A DNA stretch of 64,000 nucleotides. It comes from Phycisphaerales bacterium (lineage in GTDB: Bacteria > Planctomycetota > Phycisphaerae > Phycisphaerales > UBA1924). The stretch covers positions 62,001 to 126,000 of the forward strand of contig JAEPOJ010000001.1 of assembly GCA_017642965.1 (NCBI GenBank), read 5' to 3'. Shown here one piece after another: positions 1,386 through 35,639 of this stretch (within the stretch, counting starts at the first letter, position 1; every line of letters begins with the position of its first letter). A program made the translations under genes and the position numbers. Under the pieces are notes generated by a model, which searched no databases, had not been told where the DNA came from, and was given only the letters and a program-made list of their open reading frames with translations.

Positions 1386-4100
1386 TCAGAAGCCCAGGAT
1401 GCCGCCGAGGATATCGCCGTACGCGACGATCAGCCCCGCGAACACGACCGAGACGATCGAGATCAGCTTGATGAGGATGTTCAGCGCCGGGCCGGAGGTG
1501 TCCTTGAACGGGTCACCGACGGTGTCACCGACGACGGTCGCCTTGTGGTCGTCCGAGCCCTTGCCGTAGACGATCTCGTCGCCGCGACCAGCCGCGACGG
1601 CCTCCTGCGCACGAGCCATGATCGCATCACGAACCGCAGCAGGGATCTTGGTCGAGTTGCCGGTGCCCGCGACCATCTCGTCCGCGGTGGTCTTGCCGTA
1701 CGACTCGAGGAGCTTCTTGGCGTTGTCCCACGCACCGCCCGCGTTGGCCATGAAGACCGCCACCGCGAAGCCCGAGGTCAGGCCGCCAGCCAGCAGACCC
1801 ATCACGCCGGGGACCGACAGCGTCAGACCGACGACGATCGGGATGACAATGGCGAGCACAGAGGGCACAACCATCTCTTTCTGTGCGCCAGCGGTCGAGA
1901 TCGCGACACAGTTGGCATAATCCGGGTAGTGGTGACCGTCAAGGTCCACACCCTTCATCGGCCAGTTGTCGGGGTTCGCGAGGTCCTCCTCGCTCATCCC
2001 GTCGCGACGCAGGGCCTCACGGATGAACCCGAACTGACGACGGCACTCGCCCATCATCGCGTAGGCCGCACGACCCACCGCGTTCATGGTCAGTGCACAG
2101 AAAAGGAACGCCAGCAGCACACCGATGAACAGGCCACCGAGCAGCTTGGGGTTCGCCAGCGTCACGTCGTAGAACGTGAGCACGTCGGAAACGCTGCCCC
2201 GCTCGGACGACGCCAGAGTCGCGGTCCAGCCCTCGCCCGCGATCTCATAACGCGAGTCATGAATGCTGACGATCGGGAAAATGTCGCCCTTCGAGAGATC
2301 CTTGATGCGGTTGGTGTGCTTGCCATCCGCGGTGGTGACGTCGATCGTCATCCCGCCGTCGATGTTTACATCGCCTTCCTCATCAACCTCATTGGTGCTG
2401 ATCGCGAAACGCCCGTACCCGGAGTAGACCGCGAAGCCGTTGTCGGCCTCTGCGGGCGCAACGAACGCGGCGCCGTCACCGAAGTAGTTCTCGGCCTGCG
2501 AAGTGATCTGGGTCTGGACGATCTGGATGTACGCCGCGAACAGCGCCATCGCCGTCAGCGCCGCCGAACCGATCGCGAAGCCCTTGCCGGTCGCCGCGGT
2601 CGTGTTGCCCAGCGAGTCGAGCATGTCGGTGCGCTCACGCACCATCGGGGGCTGCCCGGTCATCTCCGCGTTGCCGCCCGCGTTGTCCGCGATCGGGCCG
2701 TACGCGTCGGTCGCGAGGGTGATACCCAGCGTGCTGAGCATGCCCACGGCCGCGATGCCCACGCCGTAGAGACCCATGAGGAACGAATCACCGCCGCCCG
2801 CGAAGGAGAAGGAGAGGATGATCGCCACAACAACGGTCAGCAGCGAGGCCCATGTGGACTTCATGCCTTCCGCGATACCGGCGATGATCACGGTCGCCGG
2901 ACCGGTCAGCGCCTGCTCAGCGATCCGCTGCGTGGGCTTGTGCTCGTACGAGGTGTAGTACTCGGTCGCGTGCGCAATCACCAAGCCAGCGATCAGGCCG
3001 GAAACAATCGACAGACCCAGACGCCACCACGTGGTGATGCCGCCGAGCTCCGACGCGTCGTTGAGAATAAACCACAGAAGGCCGAACGCGCCAACGATGA
3101 TCAGCGCCGAGGCAACATACACACCCTTGTGCAGGCCCTTGAGGAGCTGCGCGAAGCTCGCGTTCTCCTTGGCCTTCACCGTGAACACACCGATGATCGA
3201 GCAGAAGATGCCGAGCCCCGCCAGCGCCATCGGCGTGACAGCGAGCTTGATGCCCAGCGCCCCCGCCGCGTCGCCGCTGGCCAGCGTCATCGCCGCCGCA
3301 GCGCCCAGCGCCATCGTCGCGAGGATCGAGCCGTAGTACGACTCGTACAGGTCAGCACCCATGCCGGCCACGTCACCGACGTTGTCACCGACGTTGTCCG
3401 CGATGGTCGCGGGGTTCCGCGCGTCATCCTCAGGGATGCCGGCCTCAACCTTACCAACAAGGTCAGCACCGACGTCCGCGGCCTTGGTGTAGATACCACC
3501 GCCGACACGCGCGAACAGCGCCTGCGTCGAAGCACCCATACCGAAGCTCAGCATGACGACGGTGATCTCAGAAATCCCGCCCTCAATCAGCCCGGTCGAG
3601 TTGAAGATGAAGAACCACGCCGAGATGTCGATCAGCGCGAACCCGACCACCACGAGGCCCATGACCGCGCCCGAACGGAACGCCACGGTCAGCCCCTCGT
3701 TGAGCGACTGCTTGGCGGCCCAGGCGGTACGGGCAGACGCGTTGGTCGCCATCCGCATACCGAACCAGCCACAAAGACCCGAGAACAGACCCGCGACCGG
3801 AACACCGATCAGCGTCCACATCTCCTGGAGCTTCAGGGCGTACATGATGCCCAGGAAGATGATCAGGAGCACGAAGACGCCGGCGACGACCTTGTACTGA
3901 CGGCCGAGGTAGGCCATCGCACCGTCGCGGACCGCCTGCGCGATCTCGACCATGTTCTCGTCCCCCTCGGACTTCTTCATCACCGAGCCGTGGAACATCT
4001 TGGCCATGATCAGGGCAAGGATGCCGCCGATCGGAGCCAGGTAGTACGCCGGGGTCACTTCGGACATCGACGCCAGTGTGGGCATGAGTTGCATACTCAT
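1386..4100 (-). CDS. hppA: Membrane-bound, K+-dependent-type ion-pumping pyrophosphatase
   Basis: This membrane pump hydrolyses pyrophosphate and moves H+ and/or Na+ across the membrane. I start it at the ATG at 4100 (MSMQLMPTL), which has AGAGG 9 nt upstream; a TTG nine nucleotides further out has no such site. The product is 904 residues. Diagnostic motifs are KAADVGADLVGKVE, DNVGDNVGDVAG, DAYGPIADNAGG and GNTTAATGKG. Ala in GNTTAA is the family mark of potassium-dependent enzymes; independent ones have Lys. DLYES has Glu where Na+-transporting members also have it, so the pumped ion is open. About 110 extra residues sit between the GNTTAA helix and LLGGLFIGV, making it longer than the usual 650-800. 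Paired with asnS, ispF and other PPi-releasing biosynthesis it would recover energy. Confidence 0.97.
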   Translation of the reverse strand: MSMQLMPTLASMSEVTPAYYLAPIGGILALIMAKMFHGSVMKKSEGDENMVEIAQAVRDGAMAYLGRQYKVVAGVFVLLIIFLGIMYALKLQEMWTLIGVPVAGLFSGLCGWFGMRMATNASARTAWAAKQSLNEGLTVAFRSGAVMGLVVVGFALIDISAWFFIFNSTGLIEGGISEITVVMLSFGMGASTQALFARVGGGIYTKAADVGADLVGKVEAGIPEDDARNPATIADNVGDNVGDVAGMGADLYESYYGSILATMALGAAAAMTLASGDAAGALGIKLAVTPMALAGLGIFCSIIGVFTVKAKENASFAQLLKGLHKGVYVASALIIVGAFGLLWFILNDASELGGITTWWRLGLSIVSGLIAGLVIAHATEYYTSYEHKPTQRIAEQALTGPATVIIAGIAEGMKSTWASLLTVVVAIILSFSFAGGGDSFLMGLYGVGIAAVGMLSTLGITLATDAYGPIADNAGGNAEMTGQPPMVRERTDMLDSLGNTTAATGKGFAIGSAALTAMALFAAYIQIVQTQITSQAENYFGDGAAFVAPAEADNGFAVYSGYGRFAISTNEVDEEGDVNIDGGMTIDVTTADGKHTNRIKDLSKGDIFPIVSIHDSRYEIAGEGWTATLASSERGSVSDVLTFYDVTLANPKLLGGLFIGVLLAFLFCALTMNAVGRAAYAMMGECRRQFGFIREALRRDGMSEEDLANPDNWPMKGVDLDGHHYPDYANCVAISTAGAQKEMVVPSVLAIVIPIVVGLTLSVPGVMGLLAGGLTSGFAVAVFMANAGGAWDNAKKLLESYGKTTADEMVAGTGNSTKIPAAVRDAIMARAQEAVAAGRGDEIVYGKGSDDHKATVVGDTVGDPFKDTSGPALNILIKLISIVSVVFAGLIVAYGDILGGILGF

Positions 4101-4430
4101 CGTGTTCAACCTCTTTACTGGGTTGCTGCGTAGAAATGCAGCGTGTGTTCAGCGGGAAGACAAACCGAGGATCAGCCCCACGATCATCCGGTTCCAAGCC
4201 CGCCCCTGCGTTGCGCAGCGTTGACTGTCTCTCGACACCCCGGGGCAGGGGGTGCGTGCGTGAAAAAAGGATTCATACAACCCTCAAAAGGGCTGCAACT
4301 ATAGATCGGCTGACGGGACAGAATCCGATGAAACAAGAATGAAAGCCCTTTCTTTTGCGAGGGCCCGATCCAGTCCCGCGATGAAAAAACCCACCGGTCC
4401 GGTGGGCACTTTCAGGTCAGTCGTGTCCGC
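4101..4430. other. Intergenic region upstream of hppA
   Basis: About 330 nt without a gene. It holds the hppA leader, the rpsU terminator (4384-4406) and a weak GCCCT/AGGGC inverted repeat near 4346-4365. On the minus strand TTGCAG is followed about 16 nt later by an ATGAAT-like hexamer, a weak promoter candidate. No riboswitch consensus was recognised. A 68-codon plus-strand frame here has no convincing start or composition. Confidence 0.5.
4384..4406 (-). terminator. Intrinsic terminator after rpsU
   Basis: On the minus strand CCCACCGG pairs with CCGGTGGG (4390-4397 and 4399-4406) and is followed by six T residues. It lies 24 nt past the rpsU stop codon. Confidence 0.85.
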
Positions 4431-29840: not shown

Positions 29841-29986
29841 ATTGTAAAGGAACGATGCGTGCTCCGCAATCGGAAATCGTGTGTTCTGTGAGAGGAATTG
29901 GGATCGGTGGGCCTGAACGCTGTTTCCGGCACGGAATCGGGGGTTGGTTGTCTCAGAATCCTGCGAGAGCGCTATGGTTGCCGCCT

Positions 29987-31144
29987 ATGGCCCGTGCGAC
30001 TGAAATTGAGCCCATCTCCCCGCTGGGACTGACTTTGGAGCAGTTCACAGCTCGCTGCGCCCAGGAAGGGGTCGGCACGGGGCGGGCGAAGACGGCGTAC
30101 CACGCGGTTTTTCGCGGCGGGAAGGCCCACGACGCGCCGGCGAGGATCGTGGTGCCCGAGATCGTGAAGCGTCATGAGGAGATCGTGGAGGAGGGGGTCA
30201 CGATCAAGTTTGTCCAGCGCCTGCCCAACCCGAACCACCGGCTCGCGGACAAGGGGATCGACTTCGACGACATCGAGTCTGTGATTATCCCGATGAAGGG
30301 GCGATCGGGGCGGAAGACGCACACGCTGTGCGTGAGCTCGCAGGTCGGGTGCGCGATGGGGTGTGACTTCTGCGAGACCGCCCAGATGGGGCTGATGCGA
30401 TCATTGCGTGCGGATGAGATCGTGCAGCAATGGTGGATGGCGGAGTTTGTCGAGGGGATCCACATCGACAACATCGTGTTCATGGGCATGGGCGAGCCGA
30501 TGGACAATCTTGACGAGGTGCTCAAAGCGATCGCGTGCCTGACGGATCATCATGGTGCGCGGGTGCCGATGAGCGCGATCACGATCAGCACGGTGGGGCG
30601 CGTCGATGGGCTGCGCCGGATCGAGCAGCAGGTACAGCAGCCGGGGTGGGGCAAGCTGGGGCTCGCGCTCTCGCTCAATGCGCCCAACGACGAGATCCGT
30701 TCGGAGCTCATGCCGATCAATCGCAAGTGGGATATGGCGGAGCTGCAGCGGGTGCTGATCGATCTGCGTGAGGTTCGGGGTGGTCGCAAGATCATGATCG
30801 AGTACGTCCTGATCCCGGGTGTGAACGCGGAGCTTGAGCACGCGGACCAGCTGGCGGAGTGGATGGAGCCGTTCATCCGTGATCATGGGCGTGAGAAGCA
30901 CCAGGGGCACACGGGGCTGCTGAATGTGATCCCGTACAACCCGCGGCGCGACTCGCCGTGGCCGGCGCCGACGCAGGAGCAGGTCGATGCGTTCGTGCTG
31001 CGATTGATGGAGCACGGCGTGTTCGTGAACCGGCGTCGCACAAAGGGGCGCGATACGATGGCGGCGTGCGGGCAGCTGGGGACGGCGGAGATCCGCAGGC
31101 GAAATCTGGTGCCGTTGACGACCAATCAGACGAGCGATGCGTGA
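29987..31144 (+). CDS. rlmN: 23S rRNA (adenine2503-C2)-methyltransferase
   Basis: A radical-SAM enzyme that methylates A2503 in 23S rRNA and A37 in some tRNAs. The 385-residue protein has the Fe-S motif GCAMGCDFC (CxxxCxxC), FMGMGEPMDN for SAM binding, and TISTVGRVDGLRRI. The C-terminal CGQLG contains the second conserved Cys (methyl-carrying residue in the family is near KGRDTMAACGQLG). I use the ATG at 29987; frames extend to 29855 without good signals. Its stop overlaps the next gene by 8 nt (ATGCGTGA), so the fusion protein is translated together with it. Confidence 0.96.
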   Translation: MARATEIEPISPLGLTLEQFTARCAQEGVGTGRAKTAYHAVFRGGKAHDAPARIVVPEIVKRHEEIVEEGVTIKFVQRLPNPNHRLADKGIDFDDIESVIIPMKGRSGRKTHTLCVSSQVGCAMGCDFCETAQMGLMRSLRADEIVQQWWMAEFVEGIHIDNIVFMGMGEPMDNLDEVLKAIACLTDHHGARVPMSAITISTVGRVDGLRRIEQQVQQPGWGKLGLALSLNAPNDEIRSELMPINRKWDMAELQRVLIDLREVRGGRKIMIEYVLIPGVNAELEHADQLAEWMEPFIRDHGREKHQGHTGLLNVIPYNPRRDSPWPAPTQEQVDAFVLRLMEHGVFVNRRRTKGRDTMAACGQLGTAEIRRRNLVPLTTNQTSDA

Positions 31145-33629
31145 TTCATCCGGTTCATCACGGCGACGATGGATTATCGCCGTGTGTTCTGTGTACATCG
31201 CGCTGCTCGTGGCGTCCCACGCGTACCAGCTCTTTGTTTCAGGTGTGCGCGGGTTCGGCCGAGCGATCAGTGACAAACCCCACGTGCAGGTTCAGCCGCG
31301 GCTGAGCGATGGGTCCAAAGCGGCGGGCGGCGATACGCCGCTTTATTACGAGGCATGGACACAGATCGATTACAGCGCGCAGAAGACCCCGGTGCTGATC
31401 CTGCATGGCTCACCCGGGCGCGGTGCCAACTTTCAGGACCTTGGTCCCGAGCTGCGGAGTGATCACCGTCGCGTCTATGCGCCGGACCTGCCGGGGTATG
31501 GTCGATCGCCGATGACGCCCGACATGTCGCACCGTGCGAATGCGCACATGCTCTTTGAGTTCCTCGACCATGTGTCTGTCGATCGGGTCCACGTCGTGGG
31601 ATGGTCCTCGAGCGGTGGGATCGTGCTGGAGATGGCGAACATTGATCCGGACCGCGTGGCTTCGGTCACGATGCTCGCATCGATCGGCGCACAGGAGACG
31701 GAGGGGAGCGGTTCGTACCACTTCGAGCACCTTAAGTATGCCGTCGGGGTTGGGATCTTCGGGGTGCTGCCGGAGCTGATCCCCCACTTCGGCTTGCTTG
31801 GTGATTTCAAGGGGCGTGCGGGATGGCTGTGGGCGTTCTCGGACTCGGACCAGCGGCGACAATCGGAGATCATGGGGCAGCTGCGTGTGCCGGTGCTGAT
31901 TCTGCACGGACGCAACGATCCGCTCGTTGCGGCGCGCGGGGCCGAGAAGCACCATGAGATGATCCCGACATCGAAGCTGGTCATGATCGATGCGTCGCAC
32001 TTCATGCCGTTCATGCAGGTGGAACAAACGCGCGACATCCTGGTGCCATTCTTCAATCGTCATGATGCGCCGGGCGTTGAACCCGAGACGGATTATGTTG
32101 ATCTTTCGCCGGTGCCCACGCGGACTGGCGCGGACGCGTTCGTGCGGGTCGTGGGGATGGGGATCCGATCGTTGCCTTGGTGGTCGGTGCTGATCGCGGC
32201 GACGATTCTGGTCCGGGTGCGTCCGTATGTCGGGATTGCGATCGTGACGGTGTTTGTCGTGCTCATGGATATCGACTTTGGGGTTGCGCTGCTCGCGATG
32301 TTCATGGGGCGTATCTGGTGGTTGGTCCGAGGGGCGGACCGCCTCGACCGACCGTGGACGATCTTCGGGTGGGTGCGCGGGTTCCTGTTTGTCATCCCCG
32401 CATTCGCCATCGGGATCATCGGCGCCACGATCACGCTCCGGCTCGCGGAGACTGGTGAATGGATCGGGCTGCTGCTCGGTTTCTGGGTGACCTGGGCGGC
32501 GTTGCGGTTGGTGCGGCTGGTGGTCACGCGTGAGGGGTGGCAGCGGATCGGTGGGCGGTTCCAGCGGCTGATGAACCATGAGTACTACCCGAGCGGGGTG
32601 CTGTATCTCACGACGCTGCTCGCTGCGTGCGGGCGGATCGCCTCGGGGAAGGGGCTTGGATCTTTGACCGCCGTCAACCCCGGGTACTCGCGCGATGGTG
32701 GTCTCAAGGAAGAGCGCAAGTCCGAGCTCGATGCGCGATTCCCCGATGATCCGGGCGTGCTGCGGAGTGTGCTCATTGAATCTGATCGCGATCCACATCG
32801 GCGTGCAGCGTACGCGGCTGAGTGCATCTCAACGAACCCGGCGCTGGGCGGGTATCCGATCATCGCGAAGCCCGATCAGGGTGCACGCGGCGAGGGGGTC
32901 GGGATCCTGCGTGACCACGATGACCTGACCCGATACTGCGATGAGCATGGCGAGCCGTTTGTTTTGCAGCGGTTCCACCCCGGCCCGATAGAGGTTGGGA
33001 TCCTCTGGGTCCGGCACGCACGCACGATCGCCGGGCCCGCGAGCCCGGCGGGGTTCATCTACGCGATCAACAGGAAGGACTTCCCCGAGGTTGTCGGCGA
33101 TGGGAAACGATCGCTCCGCCAGCTCATCCTCGCCCACCCGCGGCATCGTGCCCAGGCGCGGATGTTCGTCGCGCGGCTGCGCAAGCAGCAGTACCTGATC
33201 CCGGAAGACGGGGAGCGCGTCACGCTGGGCGCTTTCGGGAACCACGCGCAGGGGGCGATGTTCACGGACGGCGCGGACCTGATCACGCCGGAGCTGAGCG
33301 CGAGGATCGATTCGATCGCGGACGGGTTCCGCGATGATCAGGGACGCGGGTTCGACATCGGTCGCTTCGATGTCCGCTGCTCGTCATATGAGGCGCTGAT
33401 GCGGGGCGAGGAGCTGGGGATCGTTGAGCTCAACGGGCTGACGAGCGAGCCGACCAATATCTATGACCCCAGCCGATCACTCGGGTGGGCGTGGGCGACC
33501 CTGCTCGGGTATTGGCGGCATGTGGAAACGCTCGCGGACGCGCGAATCGCGGACGGCTCGGGCGAGGCGATCTCGAAGAAGGAAGCGTGGGACTTGCTCA
33601 GCGACTTCCTGCGTGCGATGTCGAGATAG
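31137..33629 (+). CDS. Three-part fusion: alpha/beta hydrolase, membrane domain, ATP-grasp
   Basis: An 830-residue protein with an N-terminal membrane anchor (13-28). Residues 80-310 are an alpha/beta hydrolase: LHGSPG (oxyanion hole, 89-94), GWSSSGG with likely nucleophile Ser157, HGRNDPL with Asp261 and ASHFM with His288. Residues 345-465 hold about five membrane helices. Residues 480-830 resemble an ATP-grasp ligase: YPSGVLYLTTLLAACGR and TAVNPGY...GGLKEERKSE, AKPDQGARGEGVGI for ATP, VVGDGKRSLRQLI, and ELNGLTSEPTN with acidic metal ligands near 764. I know the ATP-grasp type with TAANPG and GG-ES start as a separate ligase family. The ATG overlaps rlmN, so it is coupled. Joining a hydrolase and an amide/ester-type ligase across one membrane module suggests processing of a single lipid or peptide substrate, which is inference. 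Confidence 0.85.
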   Translation: MRDSSGSSRRRWIIAVCSVYIALLVASHAYQLFVSGVRGFGRAISDKPHVQVQPRLSDGSKAAGGDTPLYYEAWTQIDYSAQKTPVLILHGSPGRGANFQDLGPELRSDHRRVYAPDLPGYGRSPMTPDMSHRANAHMLFEFLDHVSVDRVHVVGWSSSGGIVLEMANIDPDRVASVTMLASIGAQETEGSGSYHFEHLKYAVGVGIFGVLPELIPHFGLLGDFKGRAGWLWAFSDSDQRRQSEIMGQLRVPVLILHGRNDPLVAARGAEKHHEMIPTSKLVMIDASHFMPFMQVEQTRDILVPFFNRHDAPGVEPETDYVDLSPVPTRTGADAFVRVVGMGIRSLPWWSVLIAATILVRVRPYVGIAIVTVFVVLMDIDFGVALLAMFMGRIWWLVRGADRLDRPWTIFGWVRGFLFVIPAFAIGIIGATITLRLAETGEWIGLLLGFWVTWAALRLVRLVVTREGWQRIGGRFQRLMNHEYYPSGVLYLTTLLAACGRIASGKGLGSLTAVNPGYSRDGGLKEERKSELDARFPDDPGVLRSVLIESDRDPHRRAAYAAECISTNPALGGYPIIAKPDQGARGEGVGILRDHDDLTRYCDEHGEPFVLQRFHPGPIEVGILWVRHARTIAGPASPAGFIYAINRKDFPEVVGDGKRSLRQLILAHPRHRAQARMFVARLRKQQYLIPEDGERVTLGAFGNHAQGAMFTDGADLITPELSARIDSIADGFRDDQGRGFDIGRFDVRCSSYEALMRGEELGIVELNGLTSEPTNIYDPSRSLGWAWATLLGYWRHVETLADARIADGSGEAISKKEAWDLLSDFLRAMSR

Positions 33630-33845: not shown

Positions 33846-34733
33846 TCAGGTGGATCGTAGCAGGGCGAGCGACTTGTTTGAGCCCAGAGCGCCGAGGTAG
33901 GCGACGGATTGGACCAGGACGATGCTCGGGCCGATGGGCCAGGCGGCGGCGTCGCCGAGCATGAAGCCGAGGACGGTCCCGCCCAGCGCGATCAGCATGG
34001 ACCAGATCATCACGCGCGGGAGGCGTGAGCTCAGGTGGAGCGCGGCGGCACCCGGAAGAACAAGTGTGGCCGCGGCGAGGATGACCCCCACGACCTGCAT
34101 CGCCATCACCACAGAGATCGCGAGGAGGATGAGCAGCAGGTTCCCGGTGCGGTGCTCGCGCACGCCGTAGGCGGCGCAGACGGGCTCGTCGAAGCTCCAG
34201 AAGATGAGCTTGTGTCTGCACCACCAGAGGGCGGTCAGGATAAGCACGCCGGTGGCGATCGTGACCCAGACCATGTTCCAGTTTGCGTTGAGGATGTTGC
34301 CGAAGAGGATCTCTTCGATGACGTGGTGCTCGTCGGCGTGGTGGCCGTGCGCGTGCCCGTGCTCGTCGTGGTCGTGCCCGGACTCTGCGATGTTGAAGAG
34401 GATGAAGCCGAGGGCCATGGACGCGCTGAGGACGATGCCGATGGCGGTGTCGAGGCGCCCCTTGTTGGATCGCCCCAGCGCGGAGATAACCAGGGCGGCG
34501 CCGATGCTGAACGCGAGGACGATGACGGACTGCATGACGTTGTCGGTCACGCTTGAGCCCGCGAAGCCGAGCACAAGGGCGACGCCGACCCCGCCGAAGG
34601 CGGCGTGGGAGACGCCCTGGCCGATGAACGCGAGACGTTTGAGGACGACGAAGACGCTCAGGGGTGCGCCGATGGCCGCGACGCCGAGGCCGGCGAGCAG
34701 CGCAGGGAGATAGTCCGCGTGGAAGATGCTCAT
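33846..34733 (-). CDS. znuB: Zinc/manganese-type ABC transporter permease
   Basis: A 295-residue integral membrane subunit of a metal ABC-3 importer, with about eight helices. The family core VGVILAAATLVLPGAAALHLSSRL lies near residue 215. A cytoplasmic or periplasmic loop at about 120-140 has GHDHDEHGHAHGHHADEHH, which would bind zinc and marks a zinc-uptake role. It is coupled to znuC by ATGA. No substrate-binding protein (ZnuA) is near, so it must be encoded elsewhere. Confidence 0.9.
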   Translation of the reverse strand: MSIFHADYLPALLAGLGVAAIGAPLSVFVVLKRLAFIGQGVSHAAFGGVGVALVLGFAGSSVTDNVMQSVIVLAFSIGAALVISALGRSNKGRLDTAIGIVLSASMALGFILFNIAESGHDHDEHGHAHGHHADEHHVIEEILFGNILNANWNMVWVTIATGVLILTALWWCRHKLIFWSFDEPVCAAYGVREHRTGNLLLILLAISVVMAMQVVGVILAAATLVLPGAAALHLSSRLPRVMIWSMLIALGGTVLGFMLGDAAAWPIGPSIVLVQSVAYLGALGSNKSLALLRST

Positions 34734-35602
34734 GAGGCGCCTCCCCTGTGATCGTGCCCGCAGTCGGGGTGGTGCGCGTGGGACGGGTCATCACAATCGA
34801 CGGCGGTGTGGGCGTCGATGTGGACTTCGCCGAGGATCGGCTCGATGTCGTGGGCGAAGACCTGGGCGAGCACCGCGGGGGTGAGCCCGTCGGGGGTGTC
34901 GTGGAAGTGGAGCGTGCGGCTGAGGCAGGCCACGCGGTCCGCGACGGCGACGAGCGCCCGCATGTCGTGGGTGACCACGATGGTCGTGAGCCCGAGCTCG
35001 GCGCTGATGGTGTCGATGAGCGATGAGAAACGCTGCTGGCCCGCGATATCGACGCCGAGCGTTGGTTCGTCGAGGACGAGGAGCTTGGGTCGGGTGCAGA
35101 TGGCGCGAGCGATCATGGTGCGTTGGAGCTGACCGCCGGAGAGTGCGCCGATGCGCCGATCGCGGAGCTGGTCGACCTCGAGGAGCTCGATGGCGCGATC
35201 GATGGATGACCGATCCTCGTCGCTGAGCTTGCTCCAGGGCTTAAGCTTGGCGCGCAGGGGCATGGCGATGACCTGTTCGACGCTGAGCGGCCAGTCGAGG
35301 TCTGCGCCGATGCGCTGCGGTAGGTAGCCGATCAACCCTTCGCGTCTGGCCTGGTTGGGGGTCTTGCCGAAGACCTGGATGGAGCCGGCGCTCGGATCGA
35401 GCATGCCGAGGATGAGCTTGATGAGGGTGGACTTGCCGCCGCCGTTTGGGCCGAGGATGCCGAGGCGCGAGCGGGCCTCGACGCGCATGGTGACGCCGCG
35501 CAGGACCTCGAGCCCCTGTTCCCCGATGCCGCTGGGTGGGTATGAGAACGCAACATCGCGGATCTCGACTGCTGGCTGCTGGGTTTGATCGGGCGTGGTC
35601 AT
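34730..35602 (-). CDS. znuC: Zinc/manganese-type ABC transporter ATPase
   Basis: The ATP-binding subunit for znuB. Walker A GPNGGGKST, Q-loop YLPQR, signature LSGGQLQR and Walker B LLVLDEPTLG are all present, with His in VVTHD. The C-terminus ends DCDDPSHAHHPDCGHDHRGG, rich in His and Cys, a further zinc-binding sign. A start at 35632 would lie inside the candidate operator, so I take the ATG at 35602 (MTTPDQTQQ; 290 residues). No ribosome-binding site precedes it, and the promoter suggests a leader of only about 2 nt. Confidence 0.93.
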   Translation of the reverse strand: MTTPDQTQQPAVEIRDVAFSYPPSGIGEQGLEVLRGVTMRVEARSRLGILGPNGGGKSTLIKLILGMLDPSAGSIQVFGKTPNQARREGLIGYLPQRIGADLDWPLSVEQVIAMPLRAKLKPWSKLSDEDRSSIDRAIELLEVDQLRDRRIGALSGGQLQRTMIARAICTRPKLLVLDEPTLGVDIAGQQRFSSLIDTISAELGLTTIVVTHDMRALVAVADRVACLSRTLHFHDTPDGLTPAVLAQVFAHDIEPILGEVHIDAHTAVDCDDPSHAHHPDCGHDHRGGAS

Positions 35603-35610
35603 TGGTCGAT

Positions 35611-35639
35611 ATTGTTGAGAATGTGTTCTCATTTGTCGA
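35611..35639 (-). promoter_or_regulatory. Candidate znu promoter with Fur/Zur-like operator in its spacer
   Basis: On the minus strand TCGACA (35639-35634), 17 nt, then AACAAT (35616-35611). The spacer is mostly the palindrome TGAGAACACATTCTCA (35631-35616). Fur-family sites are often of the TGAnAAT / ATTnTCA form, so zinc-dependent repression is inferred. -10 matches 4 of 6. Confidence 0.5.

Follow-up and report, generated by a model that had tools for sequence, protein, structure and literature searches.

The window analysed here, a stretch of 64,000 nucleotides from a Phycisphaerales bacterium (contig JAEPOJ010000001.1, positions 62,001 to 126,000), carries on its forward strand an open reading frame (31137-33629) for a single protein of 830 residues, in which an alpha/beta-hydrolase, a membrane segment and an ATP-grasp ligase lie in one frame. 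The host genome comprises 3.45 Mb and its nearest relatives are metagenome-assembled genomes of Phycisphaerales (Planctomycetota). A charged N-terminus with a membrane anchor (residues 11-37) is followed by the hydrolase (66-312), five helices (345-465) and the ATP-grasp domain (480-830). Judged by gene order and co-occurrence, the family of this fusion is linked to genes of aminolipid synthesis. The features of the locus are as follows:

31137..33629, + strand: whole fusion gene, 830 codons and stop (open reading frame listing; orthologues)
31167..31247, + strand: N-terminal signal anchor, residues 11-37, preceded by RRR and containing invariant Ser27 (hydropathy; conservation)
31332..32072, + strand: alpha/beta-hydrolase domain, residues 66-312, PlaF-like (Pfam, PDB profile match)
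31605..31607, + strand: putative nucleophile Ser157 (GWSSSGG), conserved 39/39
31917..31919, + strand: putative acid Asp261, conserved 39/40
31998..32000, + strand: His288 of the putative triad, conserved 39/40
32169..32531, + strand: five-helix membrane segment, residues 345-465, a DedA/VTT remnant without the second re-entrant hairpin or the Glu-Asp (E-D) and Arg-Arg (R-R) pairs (hhalign, relatives)
32574..33626, + strand: ATP-grasp ligase domain, residues 480-830 (profile search, model, structure matches)
32868..32870, + strand: ATP-binding Lys578 (AKPDQGARG), conserved 42/42
33363..33371, + strand: Arg743-Phe-Asp745, putative metal/substrate site, conserved 42/42
33426..33434, + strand: Glu764-Leu-Asn766, metal-binding motif, conserved 41/41
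31137..31144, + strand: overlap of 8 nucleotides between fusion start and rlmN end, ATGCGTGA (sequence; recurs in most window-type relatives)
29855..31144, + strand: upstream rlmN-like radical S-adenosylmethionine (SAM) gene, translationally overlapping (open reading frame listing, Pfam match, relatives' loci)

When 294 Planctomycetota genomes were searched at a threshold of E < 1e-20, the fusion was matched in 32 of them, from ten families. Most matches are single open frames of about 800-1080 amino acids that span both ends, and the hydrolase-membrane-ATP-grasp order, whose recurrence the initial annotation had left to be checked, is found in more than 20 of these genomes. Of 14 loci from GTDB contigs, 13 are complete or almost complete (36-62% identity), and the remaining one has just the ATP-grasp part. 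Because many independent assemblies have the same fusion, a sequencing error is rejected as its origin, and the three-domain protein of 830 residues described in the initial annotation holds. Neither a pair of genes in relatives, joined here by such an error, nor unconserved catalytic residues were encountered. In some genomes (L040, L041, L044) the DedA-ATP-grasp part occurs without a fused hydrolase. In one genome (G185; L041 and L042) a hydrolase followed by a tail of five helices lies at the end of a contig, and DedA-ATP-grasp is a separate gene.

The hydrolase part matches PF00561 (E 2.2e-24) and has the Ser-Asp-His triad, the candidates for which had been picked correctly from the window alone, as their conservation indicates. 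In a PDB profile search its top solved relative is PlaF (6i8w, E 1.8e-29), a membrane-anchored phospholipase A1 of Pseudomonas aeruginosa, and the alignment runs from the membrane anchor onwards. Both proteins thus combine an N-terminal anchor, an alpha/beta-hydrolase and Ser-Asp-His; PlaF, however, stands alone, with no DedA or ATP-grasp part, and the similarity is distant. The catalytic domain of PlaF is periplasmic by experiment (PMC9132575).

As for the C-terminal domain, the proposed ATP-grasp assignment with its ATP and metal motifs is supported by profile and model matches, and K578, G585, E619, K647, R743, D745, E764, N766 and G767 are invariant or nearly so among aligned relatives. 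Alone, the ATP-grasp part of the window protein has no Pfam match, and it matches cyanophycin synthetase models of NCBIfam weakly. The family profile of the ligase finds cyanophycin synthetase (CphA) first in the PDB (7lg5, E 4e-10), and the domain model (predicted local distance difference test score, pLDDT, 81) matches structures of CphA, bifunctional glutathione synthetase and Ddl. Fold and order of ATP/metal motifs are the same as in the ATP-grasp domain of CphA and in RimK/GshB/Ddl ligases; the fusion lacks CphA's other domains, and its score is far below the curated cut-off (20.9 bits vs 877). Cyanophycin synthetase is its nearest known type, nearer than Ddl, but by this score the domain does not itself belong there. 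CphA, glutathione synthetase and Ddl ligases make amide bonds via an acyl phosphate. The conservation of catalytic residues leads us to reject an inactive hydrolase or an inactive ligase.

The membrane segment had been described as about five helices; there are five between residues 345 and 465, but the N-terminal helix (11-37) had been left out. In 21 of 32 scanned relatives, hydrolase and ATP-grasp are separated by a VTT/DedA domain (PF09335) at the corresponding position. These DedA-type relatives have an invariant Glu-Asp in the first hairpin and an invariant Arg...Pro-Gly-x-Arg (R-x5-R) in the second, corresponding to E39, D51, R130 and R136, the four residues reported to be essential in YqjA-type DedA proteins (PMC7818093; PMC10127716). 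They thereby keep both the PF09335 match and the E-D and R-R pairs of the DedA/VTT family (COG0586: YqjA, UptA), from which they differ in that E directly adjoins D, where the family has a spacing of about 12 residues, and in their fusion to ATP-grasp, whereas the COG0586 fusions named in PMC10127716 are with rhodanese and PAP2. A PDB search with the VTT profile gave no match. Unlike the family, the window's own copy lacks the motifs: Pfam gives no PF09335 match over the cut-off, the second hairpin is absent and the tip of the first reads RVRP. Over its whole length the segment can nevertheless be aligned with the VTT domain of the relatives (hhalign probability 93.9, E 1.6e-7), the second-hairpin stretch being the gap, and the phylogeny of the ATP-grasp part groups every DedA-less member in a single clade nested within DedA-bearing ones (support 93/89). 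The membrane part is therefore, by alignment and phylogeny, of DedA ancestry, and the window copy represents a derived state, a transporter decayed to a membrane bridge, whose clade presumably lost the transport residues once. A generic anchor is rejected for the family, in which relatives carry DedA; for the window's clade alone it is accepted. Two separate DedA genes lie elsewhere in the window's genome; on its contig C8 (G000, 2511-4173) two DedA/VTT domains are found close together, apart from the fusion.

Charged residues suggest how the protein is placed in the membrane. In the DedA-less group, means of Lys plus Arg and of Asp plus Glu are 3.9/0.6 before the anchor and 2.9/4.7 after it, and 1.5/0, 0.3/1.1, 2.5/1.0, 0.6/1.1 and 4.6/0.9 in successive loops of the five-helix segment. 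From this alternation the hydrolase is predicted outside and the ATP-grasp inside, which most likely places the two active sites on opposite sides of the membrane. The earlier idea of both enzymes working in one shared compartment is accordingly not borne out. A single-substrate cycle is possible, and with the sites so placed it would need a lipid crossing the membrane.

The neighbourhood of the relatives was counted within 5 kb for 27 DedA-type and 15 window-type (DedA-less) loci. Recurring neighbours of the DedA-type loci are a PF13444 GNAT protein (OlsB or OlsF by NCBIfam), a PlsC-type acyltransferase (OlsA), a DinB-like protein and an NRDE/TANGO2 protein, joined by a GH3 enzyme in the window's own family. 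OlsB/OlsF is present at 18/27 of these loci (22/27 when GH3 is included), OlsA/PlsC at 15/27 and DinB or NRDE at 17/27. The NCBIfam matches of the neighbours (OlsB, E 4e-42; OlsA, E 6e-41; OlsF, E 8e-120; OlsH, E 2e-106) are all under the curated equivalog cut-offs. In close relatives with intact DedA (L037, L038) the gene order is GH3, DinB, NRDE, fusion. The window's own genome has, on another contig (C17; L089, 6677-10683), an OlsI-like hydrolase, an OlsH-like GH3, DinB and NRDE/TANGO2 in a row; this GH3 matches NF052613 (E 1.9e-106, under cut-off). In the planctomycete Singulisphaera acidiphila, the GH3-type OlsH makes N-acyl ornithine and the alpha/beta-fold OlsI is the O-acyltransferase (PMC12493201). 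Fusion genomes have relatives of the synthases of this pathway and of OlsBA/OlsF, often next door; the text on OlsH-OlsI in PMC12493201 names no ATP-grasp, DedA, DinB or NRDE partner, and among the GH3 loci L094-L104 there is no OlsH-OlsG-OlsI operon. In the literature we came upon no function ascribed to DinB and NRDE in the synthesis of aminolipids.

Beyond the phylum, the family was compared with plasmid records of Pseudomonadota. A Salinivibrio plasmid has VTT, ATP-grasp, DinB and NRDE in a row, Vibrio and Photobacterium plasmids have the same set plus an OlsF-like gene, and on a Variovorax plasmid OlsB adjoins the ATP-grasp. Azospirillum has a VTT-ATP-grasp fusion, and in Paracoccus the ATP-grasp, alpha/beta hydrolase and VTT are three adjacent genes. 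That the parts are adjacent genes in one phylum and a single polypeptide in another is good evidence that the three act together. On two Komagataeibacter plasmids (L080, L087) the context is different: a stand-alone ATP-grasp of the family lies there next to genes for a SAM methyltransferase, a redox enzyme containing iron and an ATP-binding cassette (ABC) transporter for iron export.

With moderate confidence, and from sequence comparison, we suggest that the fusion is a component of a conserved module for aminolipids of the N-acyl-amino-acid, ornithine-lipid type, in which a head-group ligase and a periplasmic lipid hydrolase are held by a transbilayer unit. As the relatives adjoin genes that build amino-acid lipids, the fusion probably modifies such lipids across the inner membrane. 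The topology, the substrate, the amine, the bond cut and the direction and order of steps we infer as follows. At the expense of ATP, the cytoplasmic ATP-grasp would couple an amine, such as an amino acid, to the head group of a lipid of the N-acyl-amino-acid type; the simplest point of attachment is the lipid's free carboxylate, and the product would be a dipeptide-type or amine-capped aminolipid. Such a ligase is chemically plausible because two-part head groups, serine-glycine and taurine-ornithine, are known (PMC12493201). In ancestral members the DedA domain would then move the lipid across the membrane. Since it has shrunk to a bridge in the window's clade, transport there may have been lost, taken over by another carrier (the two separate DedA genes come into question) or become needless. 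Finally, the anchored PlaF-like serine hydrolase, facing the periplasm, would cut a lipid ester in the outer leaflet, either that of the piggyback acyl chain or one in the head group. A bolder form of the proposal, in which the ancestral protein was a complete one-chain transbilayer aminolipid machine (dipeptide-head-group ligase inside, dedicated DedA-type flippase, periplasmic trimming or recycling hydrolase) and the window's clade dispensed with the flippase, we regard as unlikely; if true, it would present the first dedicated aminolipid flippase, together with a ligase for two-part head groups.

The suspected link to lipid-bound amino acids is supported not only by neighbourhoods but also by co-occurrence with OlsB/OlsF/OlsH synthases. 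PF13444 or GH3, that is, an N-acyl-amino-acid synthase candidate of OlsB or GH3 type, is present in 31/32 fusion genomes. PF13444 is found in 23/32 fusion genomes vs 20/262 others (Fisher p 1.5e-15). The two alternate in fusion genomes: GH3 occurs in 8 of the 9 without PF13444, and one fragmented genome has neither. Several points nevertheless weigh against the aminolipid module. The Fisher values are inflated by kinship, since related genomes make them overstate independence; GH3 by itself shows no enrichment where the fusion is present (p 0.66). None of the 15 window-type loci, the window included, has aminolipid genes within 5 kb, so that for the DedA-less loci the link rests on descent and genome-level co-occurrence. 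Aminolipid neighbours are likewise missing beside the ATP-grasp relatives in Komagataeibacter and Azospirillum, and the whole-protein AlphaFold model reaches a predicted template modelling score (pTM) of 0.50.

Other explanations have to be considered against these data. The fused hydrolase might be an acyltransferase that O-acylates a lyso-aminolipid in the manner of OlsI, which would make the fusion purely biosynthetic. Planctomycete OlsI is indeed an alpha/beta-hydrolase-fold O-acyltransferase working with the GH3-type OlsH (PMC12493201), and an OlsH-like GH3 co-occurs with the fusion in the window's family. We judge this improbable nonetheless: the separate hydrolase beside OlsH in the own genome (L089) matches the OlsI model (E 1.7e-19), whereas that model (NF052614) is not among the best 25 NCBIfam families of the fused domain, and an identity of the latter with OlsI is not supported; OlsA/PlsC is already at hand at the 15 DedA-type loci counted above; and the charge pattern puts the domain outside, away from acyl-coenzyme A or acyl carrier protein. 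Still less probable in our opinion is a cell-wall module, in which the DedA part would serve the recycling of undecaprenyl phosphate and the ATP-grasp the attachment of amino acids to a wall precursor, while the hydrolase would act outside. COG0586 DedA proteins, which are undecaprenyl phosphate flippases (PMC10127716), share the E-D/R-R quartet, UptA is the best NCBIfam match of one member (E 2.3e-6) and Ddl ligases are among the structural matches; yet the UptA match is far under cut-off, the ATP-grasp is nearer to cyanophycin synthetase than to Ddl, and the neighbours are aminolipid acyltransferases, not wall genes.

It is also very improbable that the ATP-grasp is itself the N-acyl-amino-acid synthase, joining fatty acid and amino acid via an acyl phosphate as described for the acyl-histidines of Legionella. 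A review (PMC11631085) cites an ATP-grasp route to N-acyl amino acids, but nearly all fusion genomes (31/32) already possess a dedicated synthase candidate, in DedA-type loci usually next door. Least probable of all we consider a local break-and-remake cycle, with both enzymes on the same side acting on one ester substrate. Such a cycle would agree with the conservation of both sites together in one chain, but not with the odd number of helices between them and the alternating charges, with the need of the ATP-grasp for cytoplasmic ATP, with the periplasmic location of PlaF, the closest anchored relative (PMC9132575), or with the genomes that keep DedA-ATP-grasp without a fused hydrolase.

The aminolipid module that we prefer resembles in its logic the pair of MprF and AcvB/VirJ (lysyl-phosphatidylglycerol synthase-flippase and lysyl-phosphatidylglycerol hydrolase), where a head group is added inside, the lipid is flipped and a hydrolase acts on the modified lipid; the families are different, and we claim shared logic only, not membership. 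In the literature outside subscription journals we found no paper that describes the fusion or joins DedA with ATP-grasp in such a sense, and none that joins any two of DedA, ornithine lipids, the NRDE family and the DinB family; nor did a literature search yield a paper on aminolipid passage across the membrane. What is new is that the membrane part descends from DedA and that the family is closely tied to aminolipid synthases of three unrelated kinds. Aminolipids are widespread phosphate-free membrane lipids of bacteria with three known core routes (OlsBA, OlsF and OlsH/OlsI). A conserved cluster common to Planctomycetota and Pseudomonadota, in which whichever route is present is supplemented by a ligase, a DedA transporter and a periplasmic hydrolase, would open the extension of aminolipid head groups and the movement of aminolipids across the bilayer to direct tests; it would also assign a lipid substrate to one branch of the DedA proteins.

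Concerning the genes around the fusion, convergent genes for an ABC-3 type permease and an ATPase of metal-transporter type lie downstream (33846-35632, - strand) and show no sign of a link to it. On the other side, rlmN adjoins the fusion only in the DedA-less clade; it is rejected as a functional partner and is a lineage-specific neighbour outside the pathway. The overlap of 8 nucleotides between the start codon of the fusion and the rlmN stop, reported initially, is present, and it recurs in 7 of the 12 relatives with rlmN directly upstream (L053, L054, L055, L058, L059, L060, L062). At one further locus (L066, 3732-6140) the ATP-grasp part alone (393 amino acids) stands right after rlmN, the hydrolase and membrane parts being absent through deletion or misassembly.

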